Of a stretch of DNA of 58,164 bases, positions 49,494-56,041 are shown piece after piece. The notes beneath the pieces are model-generated. The model saw nothing but the letters and a program-made list of their open reading frames with translations. It ran no database searches and was not told where the DNA came from. Numbering within the stretch: position 1 is the stretch's first letter; the number at the start of each line of letters is the position of its first letter. The stretch comes from Armatimonadota bacterium (GTDB lineage Bacteria > Sysuimicrobiota > Sysuimicrobiia > Sysuimicrobiales > Humicultoraceae): the NCBI GenBank assembly GCA_031081585.1, contig JAVHLY010000019.1, positions 1-58,164 of the forward strand, read 5' to 3'. A program made the position numbers and the translations under genes.

Positions 49494-49609
49494 TCCCGGC
49501 AGCGACCTACTCTCCCACGGCGTTGCCACCGCAGTACCATCGGCCCTGGAGGGCTTAACGACCGTGTTCGGAATGGGAACGGGTGTGGCCCCTCCGGCAT
49601 CGCCACCGG
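49494..49609 (-). rRNA. rrf: 5S ribosomal RNA
   Basis: About 116 nt with the diagnostic core CCATTCCGAACACGG and the 3' stretch GAGAGTAGGTCGC. Ends pair as the terminal helix. Ends are estimated to within a few bases. Confidence 0.93.
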
Positions 49610-49658
49610 GAATGCGACCGGTGTCCCTGACATCGGCATAGGGAAGCGGCCCCGCGTC

Positions 49659-49704: not shown

Positions 49705-49797
49705 AACGACGGGACACACCTACCCAAGATCGCGGGGCGGACTCACGCACTCGGCGTTCCGATCACAGCCCCGGCGATCCCGGGACAGCACCTGGCA

Positions 49798-49810
49798 GGC
49801 TCTGTACAGC
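49798..49810 (-). other. 23S processing stem, 3' arm
   Basis: GCTGTACAGAGCC on the transcript is the exact complement of the 5' arm at 54368-54380. Together they would form the long helix cut by RNase III. Confidence 0.8.
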
Positions 49811-49954
49811 CGCCCCTAAGACGGGCTCAAGCCCTCGCCCGATTAGTACCGGTAGGCTCAACGCCTCTCAGCGCTTACACCCCCGGCCTATCAACCTGGT
49901 CATCTCCCAGGGGGCTTACCCGGTTGACCCGGTGGGAGACCTCGTCTTGGGGTG

Positions 49955-50119: not shown

Positions 50120-50861
50120 CAGTGTTGTTACTCCTCCTGGAAGGGGAGGGGGCAGGTCATTTCTGCCTGCCTCTTTCAGTCGCCTGAAAGCTCGGACTGT
50201 ATCTTCACCTCGTGCGAGGTGTCTGGCGTACAGTCTCTGAGGGTTCCAGATGAGCAAGGACCGTCTCCAGCGACAGCCGTCGCCGAGCTCCACCCTGATT
50301 CATCGCGAAGGCCACGCGCAGCAACTCGCGGAGTCCTGCGGGGTGACGATGTTGCCCCACCGCCACAGCCCGGACGACAGCCGCGAACCGCTCGAAATCA
50401 TGACGCTTCGTCGTGTGCAGGCGATACCGCTCGAAGAACGGGATCACCTTCCCGATCAGGTCGGAGCGATGTCTTACCACCAACACCCAGGTTCTGTCTC
50501 GCAGGCTCTTCCCGTGGTTCCGCTTGATGTGCCCGCAGCCCAACACGCTCTGGATCAACTCCAGCACGTGCTGATTACCGTCGTTCTGGGAAACCCGGAA
50601 CTCGGGCACGATCTGCCATCGCCACCGGGTGGTGGGATGACGTTGCACCGCCACGTGGAACGAACCTTCCCCGTCGACAAAACCTGCGATGTAGTGGCTG
50701 ATCCCCTCATCTGGCCTTCCCTGCTGGTTACCTGCACCCATCGCATTGTCACCCATCCCTACCTATCGGCACATCCTCAACGGGTTTGCAGGATGGGTAG
50801 CGTGGGATCCCCCAGGCTTTCCAGCATATAGCCAGATTTATAGACAGCAACGGTCCAGGTT
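50120..50861 (-). mobile_element. Group I intron at 23S position about 2609
   Basis: The 742-nt insert follows a U and ends in G. P1 pairs exon AGACAG-U (50862-50868) with IGS GCTGTCT (50842-50848), giving the required U.G at the splice site. P10 pairs GGACCG (50851-50856) with 3' exon CGGTCC (50113-50118). P4 pairs GCTGG (50821-50825) with CCAGC (50723-50727). The R and S elements read CTCAGAGACTGTACG (about 50227-50241) and GAAGATACAGTCC (about 50194-50206), forming P7. Removal restores the E. coli exon junction GACAGT/TCGG. Confidence 0.95.
50205..50756 (-). CDS. LAGLIDADG homing endonuclease in the 2609 intron
   Basis: A 183-residue single-motif LAGLIDADG protein: [16 protein letters not shown] followed by [22 protein letters not shown] and [26 protein letters not shown]. 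It resembles I-CreI, which acts as a dimer and cuts a neighbouring 23S site. The ORF starts in the P3-P4 region and its stop lies inside the S element, so coding and ribozyme sequences overlap over most of the intron. It is intact and probably functional. Confidence 0.93.
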
Positions 50862-50898
50862 ACTGTCTCACGACGTTCTGAACCCAGCTCACGTACCT

Positions 50899-50932
<34 letters not shown>

Positions 50933-51007
50933 ACTACAGCCCCAGGATGAGATGAGCCGACATCGAGGTGCCAAACAGGGCCGTCGATGTGGACTCTTGG
51001 GCCCTAT

Positions 51008-51041
<34 letters not shown>

Positions 51042-51197
51042 AAGCCACGGCGCTTCCACTTGCCGCCGTAGGATCACTAGGCCCGGCTTTCGCCCCTGCT
51101 CGGCTTGTAGGCCTCGCAGTCAAGCCCCCTTATGCCCTTGCACTCGCCGCACGGTTTCCAACCGTGCTGAGGGGACCTTTGGGCGCCTCCGTTACCG

Positions 51198-51234
<37 letters not shown>

Positions 51235-51513
51235 CCACTGTCCCCAGACCCGCTGAGGGCCCAGGTTAGGACGTAACCTTGCCGAGGGTGGTATTCCAAG
51301 GGTGGCTCCACCGAGGCTGGCGCCCCGGCTTCTCCGCCTCCCACCTATCCTCTACACGGTAAGACCACATCCAATGACAAGCTGCAGTAAAGCTCCACGG
51401 GGTCTTTCCGTCCAGCCGCGGGTGGCCCGTGTCTTCACGGGCTTCACAACTTCGCCGAGTCCCTCGTCGAGACAGCGCTCAGCTCGTTACGCCATTCGTG
51501 CAGGTCGGAACTT

Positions 51514-52257
<744 letters not shown>

Positions 52258-52329
52258 GGTTATAGTTACCGCCGCCGTTCACCGGGGCTTTGGTTCAGGG
52301 CTTCGCCCGGGCGAACCCGGACTAACCCG

Positions 52330-52365
<36 letters not shown>

Positions 52366-53098
52366 CCTATACGTCGCCTTACGGCTTCGCAGAGACCTGT
52401 GTTTTTGTTAAACAGTCGGCTGAGCCTATTCTCTGCGACCTCCTCGGGCTCGGTGCGTGACGCACCTCACCCTACCGAGGCACCCCTTGTCCCGAAGTTA
52501 CGGGGTCATTTTGCCGAGTTCCTTGACGAGGGTTCTCTCGCGCGCCTTGGCACGTTGAGTGCCTGGCCACCTGTGTCGGTTTGCGGTACGGGCGCCCGCC
52601 AGCCTGGCCACGAGGCTTTTCTTGGCAGTGTGGGCTGAGCCACTTCGCCGGGCATGCAACCCAGCTCGCGCTCGCGTCTCGGCGTTGGATGAGGCCCCGG
52701 ATTTGCCTGGGGCCTCCGCCTACCCGCTTGGCCCGGGACGACCAGCCCCCGGTAGGCCTACCCTCCTGCGTCCCCCCTTGGCTCATGACGGCTGACGAGC
52801 GGGGCCGGAATGTCGACCGGCTGTCCATCGGCTACGCCTGTCGGCCTCGCCTTAGGTCCCGCCTAACCTTACGCGGACGAACCTTCCGTAAGAACCCTTG
52901 GCCTTACGGCGGGCAGGATTCTCACCTGCCTTTTCGCTACTCATGCCGGCATTCGCACTTCCGGGTCGTCCAGCGGTCCTCCCGGTCCGCCTTCAACCTA
53001 CACCGGAACGCTCCCCTACCGCCCCGCGTCCCAGCGGACGCGAGACCCGCAGCTTCGGTACGTGGCTTGAGCCCCGTTGAATCTTCGGCGCAGCATCG

Positions 53099-53166
<68 letters not shown>

Positions 53167-53775
53167 AGCGAGGCCACTTCCTTTCCCACTTAGCCACGAT
53201 TTGGGGACCTTAGCTGGCGGTCTGGGTTGTTCCCCTCTCGACGATGGAGCTTATCCCCCACCGTCTCACTCCCGACGAACGCCGTCCGGGCATTCGGAGT
53301 TTGGTTGGGTTCGGTACGGGTCCTCCCGCCCTAGCCCATCCAGTGCTCTACCACCCGGAGGCTTGGCACCGGGGCTGCACCTCAATGCATTTCGGGGAGA
53401 ACCAGCTATCTCCGGGTTCGATTGGCATTTCACCCCTACCCACAGCTCATCCCCTGGTTTTTCAACACCAGTGGGTTCGGGCCTCCACGCGGGGCTAACC
53501 GCGCTTCACCCTGGCCATGGGTAGCTCACCCGGTTTCGGGTCTGCACCGTGCGACTGCACGGCCGAAGCCGTGCCTCCCCTCCGGGAGCGGCGCCCTGTT
53601 CAGACTCGGTTTCCCTCCGCCTCCGCGATTCGCTCGCTTAAGCTCGCCACACGGTGCAACTCGCCGGCTCATTCTTCAATAGGCACGCCGTCAGGCATTC
53701 CGATCCCTGAAGGGATCGGCATAGCCCTCCGACTGTCTGTAGGCACACGGTTTCAGGTTCTATTTCACTCCCCTC

Positions 53776-53808
<33 letters not shown>

Positions 53809-54134
53809 CGTGCGCTATCGGTCGCCAGGGGTATTTAGCCTTGGAGGGTGGTCCCCCCAGCTTCCCGCGGGGTTCCACGTGTCCCGCGGTACTCAGGAAC
53901 GTCACCCAGGAAGTCCCCGCCCTTTCGCCTACCGGGCTCCTCACCGTCTACGGCCTGCCGTTCCAGGACAGTTCGGCTAGAGCGGGGATTGGTCACTTCC
54001 CGGCCGGTTCGCAGCCCGGCCCGGTGACGCCCTCCAACCCCCGCGGCGCAACGCCTGCGAGCTCTCACGCGCCGCGGGTTTGGGCTGTTCCCGTTTCGCT
54101 CGCCACTACTCCGGGAATCTCGGTTGATTTCTCT

Positions 54135-54166
<32 letters not shown>

Positions 54167-54367
54167 ACTGGCCCTCCCGCACCTATGGATTCAGCGCGGG
54201 ATCCGGCGGTATGACCCGCCGGGGGTTGCCCCATTCGGAGACGACCGGATCGAAGGTTGCTAGGCACCTCCCCGGTCCTTTCGCCGCCGGCAGCGTCCTT
54301 CATCGGCCCCTGGCGCCAGGGCATCCACCGTGCGCCCTTAGTAGCTTGAACACCCGCCTTAGGAGCA

Positions 54368-54380
54368 GCTGTACAGAGCC
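54368..54380 (-). other. 23S processing stem, 5' arm
   Basis: GGCTCTGTACAGC pairs perfectly with the 3' arm at 49798-49810; further pairs (CCTAAG with CTTAGG) extend the helix towards the rRNA. Confidence 0.8.
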
Positions 54381-54598
54381 TGTAACATCGGTCGCGCCGG
54401 TACACCTCGCCCGGCGCGGCAGGTCTGGCCTGCTGCTACAGGTGTCTTCCCTATGCAGTTGTCAAGGTACGCCATCCAGACCCGCGAGGTCCAGGGCCCT
54501 GCCCCGCGACCCTGCCGCCGTGGCAGGAGCGCCAGGTCCGGACCCGGGCTCGTCGCCCGGTTGAGCCGGCCGCCGGGGCCGACCCGCAGTACAGGCAC

Positions 54599-54637
54599 AA
54601 AAAGAGGGGATGACCTCATCCCCTCGGACGGTCATCC
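54599..54637 (-). terminator. Terminator with competing antiterminator in the 23S leader
   Basis: GAGGGGATG pairs with CATCCCCTC around a 4-nt loop (54604-54625), followed by TTTTT: a strong intrinsic terminator. Upstream GGATGACC (54630-54637) can instead pair with GGTCATCC (54608-54615), which includes part of the terminator's 3' arm. The two folds exclude each other, as in attenuators. The leader between here and the rRNA, about 220 nt, contains CTTGACAACTGCATAG, similar to spacer motifs before 23S in Gram-positives. Confidence 0.75.
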
Positions 54638-54701
54638 GATGCACCGTATGCGGTTTTAGCCGCTCTGGTACACCCAACCCCTCCTTCGTACTGCACCGCC
54701 C

Positions 54702-54729
54702 ATTATAGCCCCGGCAAGGGGGATGTCAA
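54702..54729 (-). promoter_or_regulatory. Consensus promoter of the 23S-5S operon
   Basis: TTGACA and TATAAT, both perfect, are separated by 16 bp. AAGGAGG follows about 15 nt after the -10 box (54680-54686), with GTG TAC CAG AGC GGC TAA six bases later, a possible five-codon leader peptide. Confidence 0.9.
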
Positions 54730-54862
54730 CGGCCCGGTCACCTCAGGCCGGCTCGGTCGCCTCAGGCCGCAGCGCCTCAACAGCGGCAGGGCCACCACGG
54801 GGGCCAGCACGTCGCCCAGGCCGGGAGGGACCCGCCATCTCCGACGGCGGCGGGGCGGGGGA

Positions 54863-56041
54863 CTACAGGCCCTGGCGGAGGATCGACCGGTCGAGCCGGC
54901 CCCGCAGCGCCAGGGTCATCTCCCGGAAGCGCTGGCGCAGGAGCGAGCCTTCGGCGCAGAGGTCGGCGAGGCGCGCCACGAACGTGGTGAGGTCGTGCAG
55001 GAGCCAGGCGCGCTCCTCGCGCCCTGCATCGTGCGGCATGGTGGACAGGCGGGAGAGCACCCGGGGGACCGTGGTCACCACCCCGTCGATGAGCCGACGA
55101 CGGATCGGATCGAGCTGCTCGGCCGGGGCCCCGCCCTCCTCCAGTGCCAGCAGCTCGTCCAGGATCAGGCCGCCCCCGCCGCGCGCCAGCTCCTCAGCCA
55201 GCGCAGCGTACCGGTCGGCCGGGATCCGCCCACTGCGTACCAGTGGGGAGGCGGCGGCGTCGCCCTGGCGCTCGCCGGCCAGCCCCTGGAGGACGTCCTG
55301 AAAGACCTCCACCAGGTCCCGGAGGCGCTCGCACGCTTCGGGGAACGGGAGTGCCGGGAGACGGTGGACCGGGGTGGCCGCTCTCCCCGCCTCCGGTGCG
55401 GAGGCGATGTCGGATCCCCTCGCTGCAGCGCCTCCCTCCCCGTCCGGCGCGTGGGCCGGCAGATCCGGGTCGGCGGAGCTCTCCGCGGTCGCTGCGCGCG
55501 CAGGCAGGTCACGGGGCGGACGGGCCGGCACGTCGCGGGTCCGCCGGGGCGGCGAGGTCGCCGGGGCCGAGGGCCGGGCCTCAGAACGGACAGAGGCAGT
55601 GAGGTGCTCCACCGCCCGCACGAAGGCCTGGACCTCCCGCTGCAGCGCCTCGCGTTCGATCGCAGTGGCCAGCCCCGTCGCTTCCCGCACCGTGAGGCTG
55701 CTGAGCAGTGCCGCGGCGTTGAACCGCGCCACCCGACCGGCATGGGCTTGCAGGCGCTCCAGGGCCTCCCGCGTGGGACGGTCGTGGCGCAGCGCAGCCG
55801 CCGTTCCCGCCTCGACCAGCGCCTGCGCCAGGGCGGTCCCGCCCCGGGACGCCAGCTCCCGAACCAGGTCCGCGGGCCTGGCTCCGCCCAGGTCCTCCTC
55901 TTCCAGCCACGCCGTCGCCGCAGAGAGTGGCCGCTGCAGCTCGAGGGCCGTCAGGAGGGCGCCGTACGCCGTCACCAAGTGGTACAGGCTGTCGAGGCGG
56001 ACCAGGACCTCGTCGGGGGCAGGTGAACGCTGGGTCCTCAC
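54863..56041 (-). CDS. Alpha-helical protein of unknown function
   Basis: The 392-residue product is largely helical, with RLDSLYHLVTAYGALLTALELQRPLS at the start, a disordered Ala/Pro/Arg middle (about residues 165-230), and a helical C-terminus with LPFPEACERLRDLVEVFQDVLQGL and LLHDLTTFVARLADLCAEGSLL. No membrane helix and no motif I recognise. GTG 56041 overlaps the PEGA gene stop (GTGA), so the two are coupled. Confidence 0.65.
   Translation of the reverse strand: MRTQRSPAPDEVLVRLDSLYHLVTAYGALLTALELQRPLSAATAWLEEEDLGGARPADLVRELASRGGTALAQALVEAGTAAALRHDRPTREALERLQAHAGRVARFNAAALLSSLTVREATGLATAIEREALQREVQAFVRAVEHLTASVRSEARPSAPATSPPRRTRDVPARPPRDLPARAATAESSADPDLPAHAPDGEGGAAARGSDIASAPEAGRAATPVHRLPALPFPEACERLRDLVEVFQDVLQGLAGERQGDAAASPLVRSGRIPADRYAALAEELARGGGGLILDELLALEEGGAPAEQLDPIRRRLIDGVVTTVPRVLSRLSTMPHDAGREERAWLLHDLTTFVARLADLCAEGSLLRQRFREMTLALRGRLDRSILRQGL

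Follow-up and report, generated by a model that had tools for sequence, protein, structure and literature searches.

A 23S-5S rRNA unit lies on the minus strand of the window, the whole stretch of 58,164 nucleotides that was analysed (Table 1). Its promoter, with a TTGACA and a TATAAT box separated by 16 nt at 54729-54702, is the sole such site in the 58 kb, where shuffled sequences give an expectation of 0. The GUG start codon of a mini-ORF is positioned 6 nt past the GGAGG of a Shine-Dalgarno (SD) sequence and is followed by an intrinsic terminator, GAGGGGAUGA-GG-UCAUCCCCUC-UUUUU at 54625-54599 (-), with 9 pairs and a 4-nt loop. A sequence-only reading of this DNA had described the region as a possible attenuator with a leader peptide; the consensus promoter, the SD, the five-codon M-Y-Q-S-G ORF and the terminator were all confirmed on the minus strand, and the mutually exclusive antiterminator that it had proposed is borne out by the prediction of two such folds for the leader. 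The predicted folding energy of the 101-nt leader is -46.4 kcal/mol; shuffled versions give -31.2 +/- 3.5, which corresponds to a z of -4.35. About 250 nt separate the attenuator from the start of the 23S gene at 54351 (-), and no second copy of the leader was found in the genome, so that it is single-copy there.

Table 1. Features of the leader and of the 23S-5S unit in the window.
Feature	Coordinates	Strand	Basis or remark
Promoter of the 23S-5S unit, TTGACA-16-TATAAT	54702..54729	-	Consensus, 12/12 matches
P1 5' strand	54680..54699	-	Transcript 5' end GCGGUGCAGUACG into SD AAGGAGG; partners are the terminator 3' arm, the U-tract and following bases
Shine-Dalgarno AAGGAGG	54680..54686	-	Sequence
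Mini-ORF GUG UAC CAG AGC GGC UAA (MYQSG-stop)	54656..54673	-	Stop codon within the P3 loop
P2/P3 hairpin with start codon and ORF	54638..54674	-	Predicted fold
Antiterminator 5' arm GGAUGACC (S1), then GUCC, able to pair with the terminator 5' arm	54626..54637	-	Compensatory changes, read-through fold
Terminator hairpin GAGGGGAUGAGGUCAUCCCCUC	54604..54625	-	3' part doubles as S1 and P1 partner
Terminator U5 tract	54599..54603	-	Sequence
P1 3' strand past the U-tract GUGCCUGUACUGCGG	54584..54598	-	Compensatory pairs across leaders
boxA-like CCUUGACAACUGCAUAG	54451..54467	-	By eye; between attenuator and 23S
23S processing stem, 5' arm	54353..54382	-	30 nt, 90% complementary to the 3' arm at 49796-49825
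23S rRNA	50816..54351	-	Rfam match
5S rRNA	49494..49610	-	Rfam match

Beyond the window, 14 more copies of the leader, in 13 more genomes, stand upstream of 23S; these genomes come from two families, f1 and f3, of the phylum CSP1-3, now called Sysuimicrobiota (PMC11604079), so that 15 leaders could be compared across 14 genomes. A nucleotide-level search within the family recovered the leader in seven other genomes, with the 23S start 150-270 nt downstream each time, while a covariance model (R1) found it in 10/11 genomes of f1 and 4/10 of f3 and a second model (R2), built from all 15 leaders, recovered the same 14 genomes. These 10 f1 and 4 f3 genomes are those in which the 5' flank of the 23S gene is readable; in the f3 genome G013 the region upstream of 23S is masked, and in families f2, f4, f6 and f7 the 23S 5' region is missing, fragmentary or unread, so that absence there says little. 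Every annotated match is followed by 23S, and the leader L031, near a contig end and too short for an Rfam 23S call, is followed by sequence that reaches the 23S 5' end. Nothing convincing was obtained when R2 was run on some 250 genomes from other phyla; a weak match in G044 was rejected as an outside homologue, its E of 0.004 per genome corresponding, over 291 genomes, to about one match expected by chance. One genome, G019, carries two differing copies of the leader, L031 and L034, from either two rrn copies or mixed strains.

All 15 leaders have the promoter with its 16-nt spacer, 13 matching the consensus at 12/12 positions and two at 11/12 (L018 with TATAAG and L030 with GATAAT), and all 15 have an SD core of GGAGG or AGGAG. 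The terminator hairpin was detected by a strict scan in 13/15 leaders and, with L018 and L027 included, by alignment in 15/15; the U-tract of the relatives is U4-U7, interrupted in L032 and L033 and short in L034. The spacer surrounding the leader is not conserved. This conservation across genera and families is the strongest evidence that the leader is real rather than a chance arrangement.

In the terminating state GAGGGG(AU) is paired with (AU)CCCCUC beside the U-tract. In the read-through state S1 (GAUGAGC::GCUCAUC) forms and the adjoining GUCC can pair with the 5' arm of the terminator; in P1 the 5' end and the SD are joined to CCCUCUU, the U-tract and later bases. For most leaders the two states are predicted to differ by only a few kcal/mol. 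Both read-through helices show compensatory changes. S1 is GAUGACC::GGUCAUC in the window, GAUGAGC::GCUCAUC in most leaders, GAUGGGC::GCCCAUC in L033 and GAUGGGU::GCCCAUC in L030; P1 contains GGCAC::GUGCC in L013-L015, GACAC::GUGUC in L030 and L033, GCAGUAC::GUACUGC in the window, and AAGGCAC::GUGUCUU plus GGUCU::AGACC in L032. When partners were swapped among species, only 5e-5 of the permutations were as good as the true pairing for S1 and 0.002 for P1 (0.003 and 0.0045, respectively, with 9 clade representatives). In a block alignment of the read-through state 90.9% of the cells are paired and 5 pairs are changed on both sides, with slid versions reaching at most 58% paired, and the covariation score was matched by 0/500 shuffles; as the P1 blocks were hand-picked and the sequences are related, with covariation counts that are not independent, these figures are supportive rather than exact probabilities. 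Three of the five pairs of helix 1 of P2/P3 are also altered on both sides, its length and pairing vary between clades, and the bases AGCGG and CG-N-AUACG are conserved. A pseudoknot between S1 and the terminator stem was considered and rejected: the shared 3' strand is continuous with no loop between, and the 3-10 nt spacer is apparently too short for about 13 bp. Since these features disfavour a pseudoknot, S1 and the terminator are treated as mutually exclusive. With an intrinsic terminator between promoter and gene and a conserved alternative helix excluding it, as seen in the covariation of S1 and P1, the conserved element is very likely a transcription attenuator. A role of the terminator as an insulator against upstream read-through was discarded, as it sits downstream of the promoter.

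The distribution of the leader follows the arrangement of the rRNA genes. In three genomes of family f5 the 16S gene lies directly upstream of 23S, and the leader is absent from all three by whole-genome searches with R1 and R2 and by R2 searches around their 16S genes. In f1 and f3 the 16S genes are elsewhere, on other contigs in G010 and 6.5 kb upstream in G016, and their units carry their own promoters. The same leader, for which the sequence-only reading had suggested a search before 16S, was not found upstream of 16S in two f1 genomes and three f3 genomes; three f3 16S leaders do carry a G+C-rich hairpin with UGUUGUUU after it, but this is a different element from the attenuator. No 16S was found with RF00177 in the genome of the window (G000); 16S was detected in only 10/43 genomes of the class, perhaps owing to introns or assembly gaps. 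In the genome of the window the 23S is presumably unlinked, judging by its own promoter and by the relatives. As far as these sequences indicate, the leader is restricted to unlinked 23S units. With this distribution, the conservation and the covariation, an attenuator controlling 23S-5S, as originally proposed, is well supported.

The mini-ORF is kept in frame from GUG to stop in f1 at lengths of 5, 6 and 10 codons. The f1 peptides are MYQSG (in four leaders, whose ORFs are identical but for the third position of the Gly codon), MQQLSG, MLEPRVQLSG, MEQPSA, MVQPSA and MRKPSE; in the ORF for MQQLSG (L016) the stop has changed from TAA to TGA. That the four length classes are all in frame has a chance of about 1 in 80 if the frame were free, with the classes treated as independent. 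The f1 leader L019 would require a CUG start, and five f3 leaders have no AUG, GUG or UUG start in the mini-ORF frame, so that AUC is needed, while -SG-stop is kept. The mini-ORF is thus likely to be translated in most of f1, on the pattern of its sequences; its translation in L019 and f3 is uncertain. An SD and a short ORF overlap the switching helices in f1, the ORF in P2/P3 and the SD in P1, whereas a standard start codon is not found in all members.

The leader resembles the leader-peptide attenuators of the trp and his type in having a promoter, an SD, a short ORF, and an exclusive antiterminator and intrinsic terminator within about 100 nt. It differs from them in that the target is an rRNA rather than a biosynthetic or resistance gene, a run of regulatory codons is lacking, and the SD is itself a pairing partner of the terminator arm. 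The ORF, moreover, is variable at 5-10 codons, and in f3 it is doubtful whether it could be translated. The anti-SD at the 3' end of the 16S of a relative (L040), CACCUCCUUU, matches the leader SD. The terminator 3' arm and U-tract, CCCUCUUU, resemble the anti-SD themselves (in L027 and L028, CUCCUUU, CCUCCUUU). Conservation of the SD thus has two possible causes, ribosome binding or pairing with the terminator 3' arm, and it may be 30S binding, rather than the peptide, that matters. AUC belongs to the class of start codons that IF3 discriminates against (E. coli infC); if the AUC start of the f3 leaders L030-L034 is used, the leader could sense the ratio of IF3 to 30S. The translation dependence put forward in the sequence-only reading stands in part: the SD is conserved and the f1 frame is kept, but f3 lacks a standard start and the SD also pairs with the terminator arm. 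Translation-dependent control is on this evidence plausible.

In the proposed mechanism, RNA polymerase starting at the consensus promoter would reach the intrinsic terminator after about 100 nt. Pairing of GAGGGG with CCCCUC would leave the SD free in the terminating state, while in the read-through state both terminator arms would be taken up, by S1 with GUCC on the 5' arm and by P1, which contains the SD. Through its mimicry of the anti-SD, the terminator 3' arm with the U-tract would make 30S subunits and the terminator arm rivals for one SD and, because the two compete, ribosome or 30S occupancy would set the output of 23S. The effect of such occupancy was modelled by masking the SD and start in equilibrium fold predictions at 37 C, with the transcript ending at the terminator arm, at the U-tract or at full length. 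Masking moved the balance toward the terminator in 11/15 leaders with the U-tract present and in 12/15 at full length, and negative feedback is preferred for this reason: an occupied SD would allow the terminator to form and less 23S would be made. The reading of 54729-54584 as a cis-acting attenuator of the unlinked 23S-5S unit, in which ribosome or 30S occupancy sets 23S output with a negative sign, is one to which we give about even confidence. Sensing of ribosomes or 30S subunits by the leader is likely; we infer that termination takes place in vivo, that ribosomes or 30S are the signal, and what the sign of control is. A slightly more tentative proposal is that the leader is a direct RNA ribosome sensor, the competition of 30S with an anti-SD-mimicking arm at one SD setting 23S synthesis in bacteria that transcribe 16S and 23S as separate units. 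We know of no direct RNA sensor for ribosome feedback on rRNA synthesis, and searches of openly available papers turned up no rRNA gene with an attenuator that senses ribosomes, most subscription papers lying outside the search. Such an element would bear on the question of how 16S and 23S are kept in step when their genes are unlinked, and a 23S-only attenuator with an SD in its switch makes the questions of rRNA balance and ribosome feedback testable.

The predicted direction of the masking effect depends on the transcript end chosen, and the same attenuator could act with the opposite sign: P2 would open when a ribosome binds or the mini-ORF is translated, freeing the S1 5' arm and favouring antitermination. 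L016, L018 and L027 shift against the preferred sign. When the RNA ended at the terminator arm, 8 leaders moved toward read-through on masking, 6 toward termination and 1 was unchanged; the terminator probability fell from 0.64 to 0.37 in L013, 0.50 to 0.28 in L014, 0.87 to 0.00 in L016 and 0.62 to 0.02 in L018. In L013, L016, L018, L027 and L028 masking also raised S1 at a stage preceding synthesis of the terminator arm, and by eye the GAU of the S1 arm has a possible partner in an AUU or AUC close to the start. This mixed or reversed effect arises because masking also opens P2 and so frees the S1 arm. The end of the terminator arm is likely to be the decision point, and full P1 would come too late to affect the decision as it includes bases after the U-tract. 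In the leader of the window the terminator is predicted to win in every case, which, like the missing standard start codon of f3, weighs against the preferred reading. Against the opposite sign, the leader of the window shows no effect of masking at the terminator arm, several f3 leaders show a slight contrary effect, and with the U-tract or P1 included most leaders go in the other direction. The opposite sign, the main rival, is rather unlikely; were it true, free 30S would raise 23S synthesis and so balance the two unlinked rRNAs.

It is improbable that the attenuator is real but responds to a protein, such as a free 50S ribosomal protein, or to some other ligand bound at P2/P3, with the SD kept only to pair with the terminator arm. 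The conserved bases of P2/P3 do exceed what pairing needs, and the f3 leaders without a standard start codon would be accommodated. Against this, f1 keeps the frame and a stop codon even through the TAA to TGA change in L016, and no Rfam leader family, including ribosomal-protein leaders and riboswitches, matched at the gathering score in the window or at E up to 5 in 54300-54900. The leaders of ribosomal-protein operons (L10, L20, S15 and others in Rfam) are likewise leader RNA structures that control ribosome components, from which this one differs in its rRNA target. Identification as a T-box, a known riboswitch or a ribosomal-protein leader was rejected for want of a match to any Rfam covariance model.

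A constitutive leader, in which the hairpin is a pause or folding element that, like E. coli tL, aids loading of the rRNA antitermination complex or folding of the pre-rRNA and nothing switches, is a shade less probable still. The rrn leaders of E. coli contain tL, a site of pausing or attenuation attributed to Kingston and Chamberlin (1981; cited in PMC3639268), the deletion of which is reported to cause polarity. Pausing or attenuation in rRNA leaders is thus known from tL. The element described here is likewise a Rho-independent site in an rRNA leader, with a boxA-like element downstream, but tL lies in the leaders of 16S-first operons, whereas this element precedes the boxA-like sequence and occurs only on the unlinked 23S unit. 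To our knowledge no mini-ORF or SD-based switch has been described for tL, and two covarying exclusive states, an SD and an in-frame mini-ORF exceed what a pause site needs. The likeness to boxA/Nus antitermination is that a boxA-like sequence precedes both 16S and 23S, CCUUGAAAACUGCAUAG upstream of 16S in relatives being the same element; in the 23S unit, however, it is downstream of the attenuator, so that the polymerase meets the terminator before boxA could modify it, and the 16S leaders of the f1 and f3 families have boxA without the attenuator element. That the terminated RNA of about 100 nt is a stable small RNA or ribosome decoy, with 23S made by steady read-through, would suit the strong promoter, the strong terminator and the free SD of the terminated RNA, but is very improbable, given that the conserved P1 takes in bases beyond the terminator, a pairing out of reach of a terminated RNA, and that the element always adjoins 23S.

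Further features are visible in the remainder of the unit. The processing stem suggests that the 23S gene extends beyond the Rfam end at 50816 to about 49826. Two ORFs for LAGLIDADG endonucleases (Pfam PF00961) lie inside the 23S region, at 50205-50756 (-) and 51544-52236 (-), with E values of 1e-21 and 1e-5, respectively. As the stem places the gene end past 50816 and these ORFs lie within it, the 23S would appear to contain intervening sequences. Group I introns (Rfam RF00028) are present in the 23S of L096 and L097, from the family f4 genomes G023 and G027. The boxA-like region at 54446-54467 is also 86% complementary over 22 nt to 49625-49646, just upstream of 5S.
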